Source: a virus. Taken from it: DNA of 59,107 nucleotides. This document shows, piece by piece, positions 50,579 to 56,812 of the stretch; position 1 is the first letter of the stretch, and every line of letters starts with the position of its first letter. The notes below the pieces were generated by a model. That model was given only the letters and a program-made list of their open reading frames with translations, searched no databases and had not been told where the DNA came from. The position numbers and the translations under genes are program-made. The stretch is from positions 1-59,107 of IMG/VR virus record IMGVR_UViG_3300024346_000067. One strand, given 5' to 3'.

Positions 50579-50586
50579 TATTTATA
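50579..50586 (+). promoter_or_regulatory. TATTTATA element before sheath gene
   Basis: Exact octamer, 37 bases before the sheath ATG at 50624, followed by an A-rich leader. Confidence 0.55.
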
Positions 50587-50623: not shown

Positions 50624-53095
50624 ATGGCAAATTCAAACAGAGTATTCGTTTCTCCAGGTGTGTACACATCTGAGAAGGATCTAACATTCGTAGCACAAAG
50701 CGTCGGAGTAACAACATTGGGTTTAGTGGGTGAAACCTTAAAAGGTCCCGCATTTGAACCTATTTTAATTGGAAACTTCGATGAATATAAAACATACTTC
50801 GGACCAACTTCACCTGAAAAATATGGTGACGGTAACCCAAAATACGAATTAGGGTATGTTGCAAAATCATATTTACAAGAATCCAACCAATTATTCGTAA
50901 CAAGAGTATTGGGATTAACAGGATATAAAGCAGGAAAAACATTCGGAATTAAAACTTTAGGTACAAAGAGTAACATAATTGTAGCGGCATTAAGGTCAAG
51001 AGGACGTTATTCAGGTGAAACTTTAATATATGAAGTTACTGGAAATACCTCGTTTGTGATTAGTGGTTCAACACTAGAAAGTGATCCATTATCCGAATTT
51101 ACAATTTATGTAACGGGGGTAACTGAAGGTGCAAAATCATTCACTTGTAGTTTAGATACAACATCTCCAAAATATATAACTAAAGTATTAGGAACCGCAC
51201 CGTTTGATAAGGCTTATGGTGATGTACCACTTTACGTACATGAAGTTTATCCAAATTTAAATTTAAACCTTTACCGTAATGGTTCAATTAGTGGATTAAG
51301 TTTAACTGAGGTATATAACGCTGAAGGTAATAATTTTGCTGATGGGTATGACGCAGATGATTTATCTAAATTAGCCGCCATTTCACCAACTGTAGTTTCA
51401 GAAGTAAGAGGTGGTAAAGTTGACGAATTATTTGATGTCATTACAATTTCAGACGGGGATACCGCAAATATTGAGGTTAAAATAACGATACAAAATATCA
51501 ATTTAGATACTGGAGAATTTGATTTATTAGTTCGTGATTTTAATGACTCTGATGAGAATATGGTTGCGTTGGAGAAGTTTACAAGATGTAGTATGAATCC
51601 AGATGTTGCAGGTTATATCGCAAGAAAAATTGGAACATCTGATGGTGAATATTCATTAAATTCAAAATATATCATGTTATCAATGAGTGATAACGCACCT
51701 GTCGATGCATTTCCTGCAGGATTTAAAGGATTTGCAGGAGCAACAATCTCAGGGGCTACGTTAGGTAGTGTTTTATATAAAACTGAATTTTTTGATGCTG
51801 GAGATACAATATACACAGGAGCCACTCTTTCAGGTTATACGGGATTGACAAGTAGTGGTGACAAATATAGAAAAACTTCATTAGGTTTATCTTCTGATGG
51901 TTATCATAGTTTTGATAGTGATTTATTTAAATATAAAGGTACGGGTTCTACAATGAATTATACCAATGGATTCCATTTGTCAACAAACGCATCCTCAATC
52001 ACAGGAACAACATATCAATGTACTCCATATGATTTAGAGGGTCAAAGTGGTGGAGATGGAAATAAATTAACATCTATTAACTATCGTAAATTCACATTTG
52101 CAGCTTGTGGTGGTCATGATGGTTGGGATATCTATAGACAAACAAGAACAAACACAGACGCGTATGTTTTTGGAAAAAATACATACACATCAGGTAATAC
52201 AACTAATGGAGGGTTATTTGGAACCGCATTTGGTACCGCTAACTCAGATTTATACGCTTATTTAAAGGGTATTGAAACATTCGCCAACCCTGAGGCTGTT
52301 AATATTAACGTATTTGCAACTCCAGGTATCAATTTCTTTGACCACTCATCTTTAGTTACACAAGCTATTGATATGGTTGAAAATGATAGAGCGGATTCAA
52401 TTTATATTATTGGTTCTCCTAATGAATCAGCTTCAGCGAATGTTATTTCAGATTTAGAAGAACAAGGAATTGATTCTAACTATTCTGCAACATATTGGCC
52501 TTGGATTCAAGTAAGAGACACAGATAACGCAACTCAACTATATATCCCACCAACAGGTGAGGTTGTTAGAAACATTGCGTTGACAGATAACGTTTCTTAT
52601 CCTTGGTTCGCGGTAGCAGGTTATTCAAGAGGTTTGGTAAATGCAATTAAAGCAACTAAAAAATTAACTCTTGATGAAAGAGATGAATTATACAAGAACA
52701 GAATTAATCCAATCGCAACATTCTCTGATACAGGTACCATTATATGGGGTAACAAAACGTTACAAGTTAGAGAATCGGCTTTAGATAGAATTAACGTAAG
52801 AAGATTACTATTGAGAGCAAGAAAGTTAATTTCAGCTGTTGCAGTTAGATTGTTGTTTGAACAAAACGATGACCAAGTAAGACAAGAATTCTTAAGATTG
52901 GTAAATCCAATTTTGGAAGCAATTAAGAAAGAGAGAGGTCTTTTTGATTTCCGTGTAAGTGTATCAAATTCTCCTGAAGATATTGATGCTAACACATTGA
53001 GAGGTAAGATTTATATCAAACCAACTCGTTCTCTTGAATTTATTGATTTAGAATTCATTATTACTCCAACAGGAGCTTCATTTGAAAATATCTAA
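50624..53095 (+). CDS. 18: Tail sheath protein (gp18-like)
   Basis: The 823-residue protein is longer than T4 gp18 (659). The N-terminus FVSPGVYTSEKDLTFVAQSV and VTTLGLVGETLKGPAFEPILIG, and the C-terminal SAVAVRLLFEQNDDQVRQEF and ANTLRGKIYIKPTRSLEFID are typical contractile sheath segments. The middle (about 90-520) carries Gly/Ser/Thr-rich insertion domains that would face outward. It polymerises around the tube and contracts during infection. Unlike T4, it is not next to terminase but about 36 kb away. Confidence 0.96.
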   Translation: MANSNRVFVSPGVYTSEKDLTFVAQSVGVTTLGLVGETLKGPAFEPILIGNFDEYKTYFGPTSPEKYGDGNPKYELGYVAKSYLQESNQLFVTRVLGLTGYKAGKTFGIKTLGTKSNIIVAALRSRGRYSGETLIYEVTGNTSFVISGSTLESDPLSEFTIYVTGVTEGAKSFTCSLDTTSPKYITKVLGTAPFDKAYGDVPLYVHEVYPNLNLNLYRNGSISGLSLTEVYNAEGNNFADGYDADDLSKLAAISPTVVSEVRGGKVDELFDVITISDGDTANIEVKITIQNINLDTGEFDLLVRDFNDSDENMVALEKFTRCSMNPDVAGYIARKIGTSDGEYSLNSKYIMLSMSDNAPVDAFPAGFKGFAGATISGATLGSVLYKTEFFDAGDTIYTGATLSGYTGLTSSGDKYRKTSLGLSSDGYHSFDSDLFKYKGTGSTMNYTNGFHLSTNASSITGTTYQCTPYDLEGQSGGDGNKLTSINYRKFTFAACGGHDGWDIYRQTRTNTDAYVFGKNTYTSGNTTNGGLFGTAFGTANSDLYAYLKGIETFANPEAVNINVFATPGINFFDHSSLVTQAIDMVENDRADSIYIIGSPNESASANVISDLEEQGIDSNYSATYWPWIQVRDTDNATQLYIPPTGEVVRNIALTDNVSYPWFAVAGYSRGLVNAIKATKKLTLDERDELYKNRINPIATFSDTGTIIWGNKTLQVRESALDRINVRRLLLRARKLISAVAVRLLFEQNDDQVRQEFLRLVNPILEAIKKERGLFDFRVSVSNSPEDIDANTLRGKIYIKPTRSLEFIDLEFIITPTGASFENI

Positions 53096-53376: not shown

Positions 53377-53384
53377 TATTTATA
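53377..53384 (+). promoter_or_regulatory. TATTTATA element before tube gene
   Basis: Exact octamer, 38 bases before the tube ATG at 53423; the spacing and A-rich leader match those of the sheath gene. Confidence 0.55.
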
Positions 53385-53422: not shown

Positions 53423-53911
53423 ATGGCAGATTTACTAATGAAAATGCCGGTTCCATATGAACCGAAAAGAACAAACCGATTTATCTTAAGATTTCCATCT
53501 TCATTGGGAATTAATGAATGGTATGTGTTCTCAACATCTAGACCAAAAGCAAAAATAAAATCAGTAGAGATACCATTCTTGAATACTTCAACATACGTGG
53601 CGGGTAGATTTGAGTGGGAGGAAATGTCTGTAACGTTTAAAGACCCAATCGGTCCTTCTGCATCACAAGCGTTAATGGAATGGTTCCGTTTACATGCTGA
53701 ATCAGTTACAGGTCGTATGGGATATGCTGCTGGTTATAAAAAAGACATTGAACTTGAGATGTTAGACCCAACAGGTGTTGTGGTTGAAAAATGGATTTTA
53801 CAAGGTACTTTCTTAACAGGATTGAACTTTGGAGATTTGGACTACTCAAGAGACGATATTGCAACTATCCAAGCTTCTTTAAGAATGGATAGATGTATTC
53901 AAGTTTATTAA
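53423..53911 (+). CDS. 19: Tail tube protein (gp19-like)
   Basis: At 162 residues it matches T4 gp19 (163). Segments PYEPKRTNRFILRFPSSLGI, KIKSVEIPFLNTSTYVAGRF and EWEEMSVTFKDPIGPSASQA are the family's strand and loop pattern, ending IQASLRMDRCIQVY. Hexameric rings of this protein stack into the inner tail tube. It is a single-gene unit between a late element and a terminator, as expected for a highly expressed product. Confidence 0.97.
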   Translation: MADLLMKMPVPYEPKRTNRFILRFPSSLGINEWYVFSTSRPKAKIKSVEIPFLNTSTYVAGRFEWEEMSVTFKDPIGPSASQALMEWFRLHAESVTGRMGYAAGYKKDIELEMLDPTGVVVEKWILQGTFLTGLNFGDLDYSRDDIATIQASLRMDRCIQVY

Positions 53912-53935: not shown

Positions 53936-53969
53936 ACCGATAACTCAGAAATGGGATATCGGTTTTTTT
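53936..53969 (+). terminator. Rho-independent terminator after tube gene
   Basis: ACCGATA and TATCGGT pair around a 14-base loop and are followed by TTTTTT. The T-run merges into the next late element. Confidence 0.85.
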
Positions 53970-53976
53970 ATTTATA
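53969..53976 (+). promoter_or_regulatory. TATTTATA element before gp26-like gene
   Basis: Exact octamer directly behind the terminator tail, 38 bases before the ATG at 54015. Confidence 0.55.
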
Positions 53977-54014: not shown

Positions 54015-54764
54015 ATGGAAGAATATCACATTGACCCAACAATCGCATATGACGTTGTAGAATTACCTAGTCGAGGGATTTACTACGCCAACAACAAGAA
54101 ATCACTCAAAATTTCTTATTTAACTGCTGCGGATGAAAACATATTGGCGGCACCAAATTTAATACAGACAAATCAAATTGTTACAGAACTTTTAAAAAGA
54201 AAAGTTTTGGACAGAGATATGAATGTAGATGATTTAATTGAAGAGGATAAACAAGCGATTTTAATATTTTTAAGAAACACCGCATTTGGTACGGAATATA
54301 AATTAACATTAAACGACCCAAAAACAGATAAGACATTTGATATTGAGGTTGATTTAAGTTCGTTGGATTTCAAACCATTTGATTTGGTTCCTGATGCAAA
54401 TGGGGAATATTCGTATTTTATGGAGAAAAGTAAAATCGATATTACTTTTAAATTTTTAACACAGAAACAAGAATTAGAGATAAAAGAAATTCAAAAGAGT
54501 TGGAACGGTAACGGTGTTGCACCAATTATTACAAAACAACTTGAATTCATGATTAAATCAATTAAGGGTAACAGAGATATTATGAATATCAGAAACCTAA
54601 TTGAAAATTTACCAATAAAAGATTCCCAAAGTTTCAGGAAATTTATCAACGATAAAAAACCTGGAATTAATTTAAACAAAAAAACAACGACCCCTTCAGG
54701 AGAAGAAATCCAATTTGAAATTGGGTTTGGGGTAGAGTTTTTTCGCCCTTTCTACGGATTATAA
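54015..54764 (+). CDS. 26: gp26-like baseplate protein / tail assembly chaperone
   Basis: The 249-residue protein follows the T4 base-plate family pattern (gp26/gp51 type): YDVVELPSRGIYYANNKKSL, KISYLTAADENILAAPNLI, LLKRKVLDRDMNVDDLIEED, AILIFLRNTAFGTEYKL and DIEVDLSSLDFKP. Placed directly before the tape measure gene it probably also acts as the tail assembly chaperone. Its stop at 54762-54764 is followed in another frame by a conserved-looking extension (54736-54894), so a longer frameshift product is likely. Confidence 0.8.
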   Translation: MEEYHIDPTIAYDVVELPSRGIYYANNKKSLKISYLTAADENILAAPNLIQTNQIVTELLKRKVLDRDMNVDDLIEEDKQAILIFLRNTAFGTEYKLTLNDPKTDKTFDIEVDLSSLDFKPFDLVPDANGEYSYFMEKSKIDITFKFLTQKQELEIKEIQKSWNGNGVAPIITKQLEFMIKSIKGNRDIMNIRNLIENLPIKDSQSFRKFINDKKPGINLNKKTTTPSGEEIQFEIGFGVEFFRPFYGL

Positions 54765-54894
54765 GCGCAATCAATTAACGGAGATACTATTTTTAGTGAA
54801 AAGAGGGTTTTCATATGGGGATATTATGTCAATGCCAGTCTATGTTAGAAAATATTTTATTTCATTCATGATGGAATTAGAAAACTCTAACTAA
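54736..54894 (+). CDS. Frameshift extension of the gp26-like protein
   Basis: After a TAG at 54733-54735 this frame stays open to TAA at 54892-54894 and encodes LTEILFLVKRGFSYGDIMS, then MPVYVRKYFISFMMELENS. The pattern (hydrophobic helix, GFSYGDIMxMPVY, then RKYFxxxMxxE) is typical of the C-terminal part of phage tail chaperones. It has no start codon near its beginning. It is reached from the gp26 frame by +1 (or -2) slippage at TTTTTT (54738-54743), just before the stop. A sequencing indel would give the same picture, but the position matches programmed frameshifting before tape measure genes. Confidence 0.65.
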   Translation, partial: SFFALSTDYKRNQLTEILFLVKRGFSYGDIMSMPVYVRKYFISFMMELENSN

Positions 54895-54896
54895 TC

Positions 54897-54904
54897 TATT
54901 TATA
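54897..54904 (+). promoter_or_regulatory. TATTTATA element before tape measure gene
   Basis: Exact octamer ending three bases before the ATG at 54908, directly after the frameshift extension stop. Confidence 0.5.
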
Positions 54905-54907
54905 TGT

Positions 54908-56791
54908 ATGCCAACAGACAAAGAATTAAAAAGGGCGGCTGACGAAAGTTTAGATAAGTTTAGTAAACTTTACGACCCAAAGGGTGAAAATCCTACCGCC
55001 ACGGTAAACGCATATAAACTTTATAAAAGTTTAAGTTTATCCGACATTGAAGCTAAAGGAGATAAACCATCATCAACTGCGGGAAAATTCGCTAAAGGAA
55101 CTTTAGGTATCATACAAACACAAGAGGCTGGTGGTTCATATGCTGATAGTAAAAGTGTTGTAAACGCCGAAAAAGTGTTTAGTTTGGCGTTTGATACAAA
55201 AGGTAATTTATTAGAATCAGGTAAAATATTTTCAAATATTCTTGAGGAAGCAGGAACACAAGGAAAACAAGAATTAAGTAACCAAGCTGTATTGTTAACA
55301 GACATTAACACTAAAACAGGATTAACAGGTAAATTATCAAAAAATTATAGAGAAGAAATATCTGCAGCATATCCCGCATTAGCAAGATTAGGAATTGAAT
55401 ATTCTGAATTGGCAAATGCTGCAGTGTCATTAGTACAACAATCGGGTAAATTTAATTTAATTAATAAAGAACAATTTGAGTCTATGGGTTTAGCGGCTAA
55501 GGCTTACGTTGGAAGTATTGCTGAGGTTGTTGAGATGATACCCGGATTTGAAAGGGTTGGTATTGGTGCAACTGGTGTTGTGAAAGCAGTTTCAGAGGCT
55601 GGTGCAAGATCAATAAATCTTGGTTTAAGTTCACAAAAAATTACAAAAGAATTAGGTCAAAATATTGGGTTATTAAATTCGTATGGTTTTCAAAACGGAG
55701 TTCAGGGTCTTGAAAGAATGGTTCAAAAAGCAACCGAATTTAGAATTAGTATTGCTGAAGTTTCTAAATTGGCGGACAATGTGTTTACACCTGAAAAGGC
55801 CATTGATTTGGCCGCAAATTTACAAGTGTTAGGTGGAGCAATAGGAGATTTTAACGACCCACTTAAACTAATGTATATGGCCACAAATAATGTGGAAGGT
55901 TTACAAGATGCATTAATTGGTGCTGCGAGTTCATTGGCAACATATAACCAAGAACAAGGAAGATTTGAGGTAACGGGACTTAACCTAAGAAAGGCAAGAG
56001 AAATGGCACAGGCGTTAGGTGTTGATTATAAAGAGTTAACTAACGCGGCAGTTGCCGCTCAAGAAAGGTTAACAGCGGGTGAATCGTTATCTGGTCTAAG
56101 TATTAAAGCGGAGGACAAAGAATTTTTAACAAACATTGCACAGATGCAAGACGGTAAAATGACCGTTTCATTACAATCTAAAGAATTAAAAGATTATTTT
56201 GGTGGTACAACCGTAGCATTAGAATCTTTAACAGATACACAAGCTAGTAAATTATTGGAATTTAAAAAAGAATTTGAGAAATTATCGCCAGAAGATATTG
56301 TTAGAAAACAAGCGACAGACGTTGAAAATATTAGAAGAGATTTAACCTTTTTAGTTGCATCAACAAGACTTAGGGGTGAAGAATTAATTAAAGCGGTTGC
56401 TGAAGGTGCTGGTGTGTCATTTAAGGCGGCTGCGGATACAGTAAGAGTAATGACAGGTGGTAGTGAAGCTTCTGTAAATAAAATTTTATCTAAATTAGAG
56501 GCGGACGCAAAAAAAGATGCTGATAAAAAAGCCCAAACGGCAAAAGTAAACGCACCAAAATCAAATGAAGTAATGACCGCAGACCAAGTTAAAAATGAGG
56601 TCGAGAAAAAAGTTGCGGACACAAATAAAGGAACACAAAATGTGAATATGAGTGTTAAACATGAAGTTCAAGTTCCTGCAGTTATGGATGCACTTCAAAG
56701 AGAAATTGTAAAAGACCAAAGTTTATTTGCAAGTTGGGGTTCAAGAGCGGATTCAGATTACACAACACCTCCAGTTGCTAAAGGAAGATAA
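54908..56791 (+). CDS. Tail tape measure protein
   Basis: The 627-residue protein is long, helical and Ala/Lys-rich (AADESLDKFSKLYDP, NAAVSLVQQSGKFNLINK, AAQERLTAGESLSGL, KLEADAKKDADKKAQTAKVN). It follows the chaperone-like gp26 gene as tape measures usually do. At about 0.15 nm per residue it would set a tail of roughly 94 nm, near the T4 tail (gp29, 590 residues). The C-terminus (SVKHEVQVPAVMDALQRE) may be the part exposed at the tip. No clear peptidase or lysozyme domain is seen. Confidence 0.75.
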   Translation: MPTDKELKRAADESLDKFSKLYDPKGENPTATVNAYKLYKSLSLSDIEAKGDKPSSTAGKFAKGTLGIIQTQEAGGSYADSKSVVNAEKVFSLAFDTKGNLLESGKIFSNILEEAGTQGKQELSNQAVLLTDINTKTGLTGKLSKNYREEISAAYPALARLGIEYSELANAAVSLVQQSGKFNLINKEQFESMGLAAKAYVGSIAEVVEMIPGFERVGIGATGVVKAVSEAGARSINLGLSSQKITKELGQNIGLLNSYGFQNGVQGLERMVQKATEFRISIAEVSKLADNVFTPEKAIDLAANLQVLGGAIGDFNDPLKLMYMATNNVEGLQDALIGAASSLATYNQEQGRFEVTGLNLRKAREMAQALGVDYKELTNAAVAAQERLTAGESLSGLSIKAEDKEFLTNIAQMQDGKMTVSLQSKELKDYFGGTTVALESLTDTQASKLLEFKKEFEKLSPEDIVRKQATDVENIRRDLTFLVASTRLRGEELIKAVAEGAGVSFKAAADTVRVMTGGSEASVNKILSKLEADAKKDADKKAQTAKVNAPKSNEVMTADQVKNEVEKKVADTNKGTQNVNMSVKHEVQVPAVMDALQREIVKDQSLFASWGSRADSDYTTPPVAKGR

Positions 56792-56804: not shown

Positions 56805-56812
56805 TATTTATA
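56805..56812 (+). promoter_or_regulatory. TATTTATA element before last gene
   Basis: Exact octamer, 13 bases before the ATG at 56826. Confidence 0.5.

Follow-up and report, generated by a model that had tools for sequence, protein, structure and literature searches.

Phage lambda makes its chaperones gpG and gpGT as a short and a long form by a −1 ribosomal frameshift (PMC5009743). Atkins et al. describe G-T frameshifting as a conserved trait of long-tailed phages "except T4", with a shift that is likely +1 in HSTV-2 (PMC5009743). T4 itself has two genes of one Pfam family, gp26 and gp51, on opposite strands. Judging by its title, Vladimirov et al. 2022 reportedly holds that the chaperone genes of T4-like phages point to some mechanism that is not frameshifting. 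The PRFect paper takes that work to describe a short gene accompanied by a long fusion gene (PMC10885494), and in a paper on a Pseudomonas phage it is the reference given for poly-T −1 signals (PMC12846349). For the tail assembly chaperone of the HF1 group of haloviruses, which are archaeal myoviruses, a TTT-CGC +1 motif has been proposed, for which the authors consider experimental evidence to be still needed (PMC7230728). We here describe a gp26-like gene in the virus DNA IMGVR_UViG_3300024346_000067 (positions 1 to 59,107, one strand, 5′ to 3′; this whole stretch of 59,107 nt is called the window), which very probably gives rise to a short and a long tail assembly chaperone by programmed +1 ribosomal frameshifting. 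The locus resembles lambda in its short and long forms but differs in the direction of the shift and in belonging to the T4_baseplate family, and it differs from T4 in using one gene and a shift instead of two genes of that family. The phenomenon is thus of a known kind, given lambda G/GT, the −1 shifts cited for T4-like chaperones and the proposed TTT-CGC +1 shift of HF1 haloviruses. What is new within the searchable literature is that the shift goes in the +1 direction in the T4_baseplate family, how widely it occurs there, and that an RNA stem lies upstream of it; searches of the literature, which mostly did not cover subscription papers, turned up no account of +1 shifting in chaperones of the gp26 family, and no joined long protein is listed in the annotated relatives looked at.

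The gp26-like gene (54015 to 54764, plus strand) encodes the 249-residue protein that would be the short form. It matches PF12322 (T4_baseplate; E 1.1e-8, 35.5 bits, above the gathering cut-off of 24.5) and phrog_150 (baseplate hub; E 5.7e-12), and it is the only PF12322 copy in the 59-kb record. The extension (54736 to 54894, plus strand) consists of 52 codons in the +1 frame relative to gp26, ends with a TAA at 54892 to 54894 and lacks a start of its own, the sole ATG, GTG or TTG in its first half being a GTG at codon 21. A sequence-only reading of this stretch had already placed the end of the gene and the start-less frame at exactly these coordinates and had proposed a programmed frameshift yielding a longer tail chaperone, which is the best-supported reading given the conserved +1 frame, the purifying selection and the confined shift window set out below.

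When relatives were retrieved with gp26 alone (best 80 of 124), all 80 loci also matched the extension, every time in the +1 frame and with a worst E-value of 1.7e-8; three of these matches were shorter than 47 residues. A further 78 loci fetched with the extension (best 80 of 183) are likewise all +1, although the presence of the extension there is no test because the loci were picked by the extension itself. Of the 162 loci plus the window, 161 were matched by the extension with tblastn, L161 and L162 being without a match. The 161 matching rows gave 82 distinct complete sequences (L159 and L160 were set aside, as were incomplete rows and those with less than 240 nt of upstream sequence), and after removal of the partial L084 the remaining 81 were thinned to 55 representatives (below 95% nucleotide identity; mean pairwise identity 74%), to which the counts below refer. 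Over the first 36 codons after the gp26 stop, the extension frame has no stops, against 173 and 157 in the other two frames, and the ratio of nonsynonymous to synonymous proportions (pN/pS) is 0.24, against 1.14 and 1.55. The Jukes-Cantor-corrected ratio (dN/dS) of the whole single-coding part is 0.08. Since stops are absent and both ratios are low, we conclude from the alignment that the extension is protein-coding and under purifying selection, and its recurrence among the compared sequences is far beyond chance. The recurrence of the +1 extension across relatives also makes a sequencing indel very unlikely, and an error in the T-run was rejected as an explanation, the same frame being found in contigs of many metagenomes.

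Where the shift can occur is narrowly limited. Because a TAG in the extension frame at 54733 to 54735 bars entry upstream and the gp26 stop (TAA, 54762 to 54764) sets the downstream limit, a ribosome translating gp26 is confined to a shift window of nine codons, GAG TTT TTT CGC CCT TTC TAC GGA TTA, or to the gp26 stop itself. This stretch holds the shift site TTT TTT CGC C (54738 to 54747), with six T (T6) at 54738 to 54743. The first TTT is kept in 54 of the 55 representatives and the second, which would occupy the ribosomal peptidyl (P) site (54741 to 54743), in all of them; the column of the aminoacyl (A) site is always CGN (CGC in 44, CGT in 6, CGA in 5), and among the codons that follow CCT is found in 54 and TTC and GGA in 55. 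The alignment of relatives at nucleotide level, which had been suggested as a check for the T-run and the extension, finds T6 in 54/55 and the extension frame open in 55/55. Nevertheless, the sequence-only reading, correct in noting the six T, took the run for the slippery element, whereas the constant core is TTT_CGN: L010 has TTC TTT CGC, in which T6 is broken, and TTC TTT CGN occurs in some distant relatives too. Among 16,414 codons in 44 open reading frames (ORFs) of the window, CGC is used 3 times (shift site included) and CGG not at all, as against 364 AGA and 119 CGT. Given the invariant TTT and these counts, a Phe codon able to re-pair from UUU to UUC (TTC, 54742 to 54744) precedes a very rare codon (CGC, 54744 to 54746). 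By this usage, which is that of the window and may differ from that of the host, CGT is less rare than CGC, so that the A-site codon is less rare in the six CGT representatives. No phage-encoded tRNA was found in the window. What drives the shift is probably not the T-run but the move of the P-site tRNA from UUU to UUC while the very rare CGC stands in the A site; a slip at the first or the second TTT would give an identical product.

Precedents for such a site exist outside tail genes. The pattern UUU_Ynn is described as especially prone to +1 shifts in bacteria (PMC5009743), and the influenza A PA-X site is UCC_UUU_CGU, a preference for CGN in the A site having been noted at other putative +1 sites (PMC3498833). 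The latter likeness, a P-site slip on UUU_C with a CGN A-site codon, is a parallel of mechanism only, in an unrelated gene of a eukaryotic RNA virus. Bacterial prfB, with CUU before a stop codon, likewise shifts +1 by P-site re-pairing onto UUU, and two relatives of the present locus (L159 and L252) have CTT_TGG; prfB shifts at a stop codon (PMC10885494), whereas here the codon is a sense codon. As for the HF1-type motif, the HF2 chaperone has no PF12322 match, falls into other PHROGs and shows no profile similarity to the window protein, so that homology between the two finds no support in profile comparison.

We would picture the process as follows. Most ribosomes would read ...GVE-TTT-TTT-CGC-CCT-TTC-TAC-GGA-TTA-TAA and release the short chaperone, while a fraction would stall at this point, Phe-tRNA being bound to TTT 54741-54743 and the A site holding the rare CGC, then move one base forward onto TTC and continue with GCC. 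The predicted long product would have 292 residues (...GVEFF-ALSTDYK...), with TTTPSGEEIQFEIGFGVEFFALSTDYK as the tryptic peptide across the +1 junction. The short and long forms, in whatever ratio they may be made, would act on the tape measure protein, whose gene presumably follows directly, in the manner of TAC-N and TAC-NC (tail assembly chaperone; G and GT in lambda).

The final frame could also be reached in other ways. If the P-site tRNA on the second TTT re-paired two bases back inside T6, a −2 shift would lead to the same frame with one extra Phe (EFFF-ALST), and if RNA polymerase slipped on the T-run, a mixed mRNA population would be produced; the presence of T6 in nearly all representatives, and mostly of T7 in a related TTT_TGG/TTT_TAC clade, would fit the latter. 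Six T is, however, short for polymerase slippage. The T-run is moreover broken in several members in which the frame persists: in L010 and L269 (TTC TTT CGC), L164 and L263 (TTC TTT CGT), L248 (TTC TTT TAC), and L159 and L252 (TTT CTT TGG), −2 re-pairing would be mismatched, and the extensions of loci lacking T6 are recognised as homologous. Since the frame is kept where the run is broken, +1 P-site slippage suits these data and both alternatives are disfavoured; we regard −2 frameshifting as very improbable, and polymerase slippage as a shade more so. Of the two directions that the earlier reading had left open, +1 is thus supported and −2 fits badly wherever the run is broken.

Alternatively, the extension could be a small gene in its own right, with a start within gp26 or shortly after it. 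Database annotation does treat it as a separate ORF, and 41 of the 55 representatives have some ATG, GTG or TTG after the upstream stop and ahead of the single-coding part, in most cases a TTG in gp26. Their positions are scattered, however. In 14 representatives, the window included, the TAG of the extension frame stands so close that three codons separate it from GCC, and 13 of these have no such codon ahead of the single-coding part, the exception being L077 with an ATG in the overlap; among the other 41, 40 have one, at scattered places and mostly as TTG within gp26. Codon conservation also extends back into the overlap. The start-codon survey thus led us to reject a separate gene for most representatives, and we give this explanation the least credence of those considered here, although the extension may start at a non-standard codon. 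Relatives whose extension may have a start of its own, a case which the earlier reading had named as a reason to abandon the frameshift, are L162 and L173, where an ATG lies at the gp26 stop and the extension is in the −1 frame.

It may also be that frameshifting is real but that its products are baseplate hub components rather than tail assembly chaperones. PF12322 and phrog_150 carry baseplate names, and a T4 review places gp26 in the hub on the basis of genetic studies; the same review nevertheless tabulates gp26 and gp51 as hub assembly chaperones (PMC3004832). The position of the gene after the tube gene and the short/long architecture speak for chaperones, as does the title of Vladimirov et al. 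2022, known from its citation, which concerns T4-like tail assembly chaperones. In a model of the long product (mean predicted local distance difference test score, pLDDT, of 79), the extension forms helices at residues 247-261, 267-272 and 275-289 with pLDDT 81-86 (blocks 251-290), and the linker at 230-244, which holds the shift site, is below 50; in the alignment made for the structure, stray terminal residues are placed far right in the gp26 rows. When the N-terminal domain was aligned to 893 PDB chains, the best two matches were the HK97 tail assembly chaperone 2ob9 (Z 4.7, residues 7-94), a weak but best fold match, and YqbN 3klu (Z 4.5, residues 7-92), which we take to be a phage tail chaperone. 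A role as hub components is unlikely, though less remote than the alternatives to +1 slippage.

A conserved RNA stem lies just upstream of the shift site. In 20 representatives, RNAalifold pairs RCCCCR (54690 to 54695, plus strand; ACCCCT in the window) with YGGGGU (54728 to 54733, plus strand; TGGGGT in the window), the 3′ arm ending 7 nt before the P-site codon, which corresponds to the trailing edge of the ribosome. All six pairs form in 49 representatives and five in 6, the window being among the latter. Five of 29 fourfold-degenerate gp26 columns have an invariant third base, all in the last 24 codons (ACC226, GGA229, GGG239, CCT245 and GGA248, of which CCT245 and GGA248 also code for the extension). 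The freely varying stem pair is formed by the wobble positions of codons 227 and 238 (A-T in 20, G-C in 27, G-T in 4, A-C in 1, T-T in 3), and these third bases show the strongest association among all 3,322 such pairs in gp26 (Fisher p 1.6e-9, a value that ignores kinship; the runner-up has 6.3e-5). Shuffled partners and slid registers do worse than the real stem both on cells paired and on covariation score, and the CCCC/GGGG arms are present in the sister loci L302, L307, L324, L327, L342, L345 and L347. The stem is thus conserved with covariation, and it probably stimulates or tunes the shift. Its loop contains TCAGGAGA (54696 to 54703, plus strand), which is near-invariant, synonymous positions included, with codon TCA in 54 and GGA in all 55 representatives. 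An effect of the Shine-Dalgarno type seen with RF2 needs a shorter spacing than about 38 nt. This sequence, although Shine-Dalgarno-like, lies at about that distance from the P site and was judged too far away to be a direct stimulator. A downstream stem was likewise rejected, since the long-range helix proposed there by RNAalifold shows no change on both sides and the window folds worse than shuffled sequences.

Whereas the earlier reading had called the +1 shift an unusual instance, it does not stand alone. Loci from across the broader family, taken from four further scans and thirteen loci of phage records, were classed by script and by eye, +1 being assigned to open frames of 30-150 codons; 178 distinct loci have such an extension, 123 of them outside the window clade. 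Among these 123, 111 are recognised (E ≤ 0.01) by the profile of another set, as against none of 66 −1 frames taken from these loci. Besides the window clade (55 of 55 representatives, all TTT_CGN), an open +1 frame is found in 69 of 73 loci of the Microcystis/Flavobacterium-type set (TTT_TGG in 45, TTT_TAC in 21), in all 23 uncut loci among L261-L292 of the SP-15-type set (TTT_CGN in 15), in 23 of 38 distinct loci of a mixed set (A3) and in 8 of the 13 loci from phage records, where L162, L167, L171, L172 and L173 are in the −1 frame. L164 was automatically assigned to a later TTT, but GAA TTC TTT CGT there reads like the others. Five further A1 loci listed as −1, that frame being as long or longer, carry TTT TTT TGG and an open +1 frame as well. 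Two SP-15-type loci have neither TTT nor CTT, CCC_AGT being possible there. In four loci of this type (L280, L283, L285 and L289), CCC_AGT lies near the usual place of TTT_CGN, and a proline codon may have become the shift site there. A shift at a proline codon is known from Listeria phage PSA. In L165 (Xanthomonas phiXF1) and L168 (Pseudomonas QdP_Psa3), gp26 ends with TTC TTT CCC TAA and has an open +1 frame that extension profiles do not recognise; the shift could take place at TTT_CCC or CCC_TAA.

The −1 form prevails in the scan made with DSL-LC02 (Synechococcus, Kyanoviridae) and phiAS5 (Aeromonas) as queries, called cyanophage-type (A4) on the basis of similarity to DSL-LC02: 78 of 79 distinct loci have a −1 extension and the 79th is cut short. 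The gp26 of both phages belongs to the same family, occupies the same place and shares the TTTTTTCGCC core with the window, but it ends with GAT TTT TTC GCC TGA and its extension is in the −1 frame at T_TTT_TTC, unlike the +1 of the window; GATTTTTTCGCC there and GAGTTTTTTCGCC in the window have a shared core in a different framing. The same gp26 end with a −1 extension is found in L171, L172 and L353-L432 (DSL-LC02, phiAS5 and similar loci), and the DSL-LC02 and phiAS5 records list a separate small hypothetical ORF at the extension. Elsewhere, L348 and RAS14 L167 are −1 with long T-runs, L293-L295 of the SP-15-type scan are −1, L241 is −1 only and without a T-run, L191 and L236 end within the extension, and L215 shows none. 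L241 lies in the +1 clade with TTC TTC TGG, and its −1 extension may be a real switch or a contig error. In quick trees, which have long branches and came with a warning about them, a branch (100% in the Shimodaira-Hasegawa-like approximate likelihood ratio test, SH-aLRT) separates the 70 chosen +1 rows from the −1 and Straboviridae rows; once five −1 exceptions were added, the fewest changes between +1 and −1 were 4.

A third arrangement has two genes. Fifteen of the 38 A3 loci have no +1 extension of 30-150 codons, and the six inspected (L296, L297, L304, L306, L316 and L317) have, after the gp26-like gene, a long second gene with its own ATG and an extension-like end; in L316 the first gene as well as the second matches PF12322. 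This is a tandem duplication akin to the T4 gp26/gp51 pair. L303 and L319 have a long frame similar to these second ORFs, and L298, L305, L313, L326, L337 and L344 are further A3 loci without a +1 extension. PF12322 copies number two in T4 and in the tandem record, and one each in DSL-LC02, phiAS5, SP-15, five large window-clade records and G007; the PF12322 model missed Mel-JY01, immuto and G006.

In T4, gp26 and gp51 both match PF12322, and the extension is linked to the C-terminal domain of gp51 by a chain of profile comparisons, in which each E-value refers to a single comparison. The extension profile of the window clade matches that of the Microcystis/Flavobacterium-type clade (E 4.5e-16), the latter matches cyanophage-type extensions (E 2.6e-6), and these match the gp51 C-terminus (residues 206-245, eight Straboviridae) with E 9.5e-10, the gp26 control giving 0.35. 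All extensions pooled match gp51 with E 7.9e-5 (probability 61%; gp26 controls 0.26-0.5). With column-shuffled controls against gp51, the lowest E-values of 20 each were 0.029 (cyanophage-type), 0.011 and 0.035 (window clade), and T4 gp51 as a single-sequence query gave no significant match. Since gp51 ends in a domain that matches the cyanophage-type extensions, which are chained to that of the window, T4 would hold the two forms as two genes. The earlier reading named lambda and P2, not T4, as the classic cases of frameshifting chaperones, but T4 need not be outside the scheme.

Several points weigh against this interpretation or its parts. Both products are predicted from sequence. Conservation of the first TTT goes further than a slip at the second would require. 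By convention, T4 gp26 counts as a protein of the baseplate hub; the Z values for the HK97 fold are low, and Foldseek against PDB gave no match with E ≤ 0.001 (2ob9, E 2.3). Twelve of the 123 +1 extensions outside the clade (L165, L168, L251 and nine SP-15-type loci) are unrecognised by the profile of another set. Taken alone, the window clade reaches gp51 with E 0.0042 (probability 8%) and cyanophage-type extensions directly with E 0.015 (probability 3%), and two other +1 clades reach gp51 with E 0.016 and 0.094. As for the stem, its covariation is testable on only 2 phylogenetically independent supported pairs, which on average change in the same direction in 1.9 of 2 cases; at the pair that varies, the window itself has a U-U mismatch; of 200 shuffled versions of 54685-54740, 22 reach a fold as good as that of the window or better (z −1.15); and the sister loci L312 and L339 lack the stem despite having the same shift site. 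Nor is there unusual structure downstream in the window, 191 of 200 shuffles folding at least as well (z +1.47).

Taken together, these data allow a broader reading that we consider equally apt to hold or to fail, namely that in a deep branch of the T4_baseplate family the two chaperones are made through a +1 slip of Phe-tRNA at UUU_CGN or UUU_U where T4-like cyanophages slip −1 in TTTTTTC, the direction having switched at a homologous site; that the T4-type and tandem groups replaced recoding by gene duplication; and that in the window subclade the forward slip is driven by the covarying upstream stem (RCCCCR/YGGGGU), which lies at the trailing edge of the ribosome. On the main reading, the T4 gp26 family itself carries a conserved recoding site, often +1, despite the "except T4" statement (PMC5009743), and the T4 gp26/gp51 pair looks like a two-gene version of the one-gene arrangement in the window. 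The natural series of +1, −1, tandem copies and split genes may help to explain why phages keep a ratio of short to long chaperone, and the family offers many UUU_CGN +1 sites together with a putative stimulatory element upstream.

The surrounding tail module of the window comprises a sheath-like gene (50624 to 53095) and a tube-like gene (53423 to 53911; phrog_4542) upstream of the gp26-like gene. No plasmid matched the locus. The next gene, a 627-residue ORF at 54908 to 56791 (plus strand), had no family match in profile searches; by position its product is presumably the tape measure, which is annotated at the same place in Flavobacterium immuto, SP-15, LIS04 and phiXF1. The sequence TATTTATA recurs shortly before tail genes (54897-54904, 53969-53976, 53377-53384, 50579-50586 and 56805-56812) and is perhaps a late promoter or start signal. 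It occurs 23 times in the window on both strands, as compared with a mean of 12.3 in shuffles, and lies within 45 nt of the extension stop in 41 of the 55 representatives.
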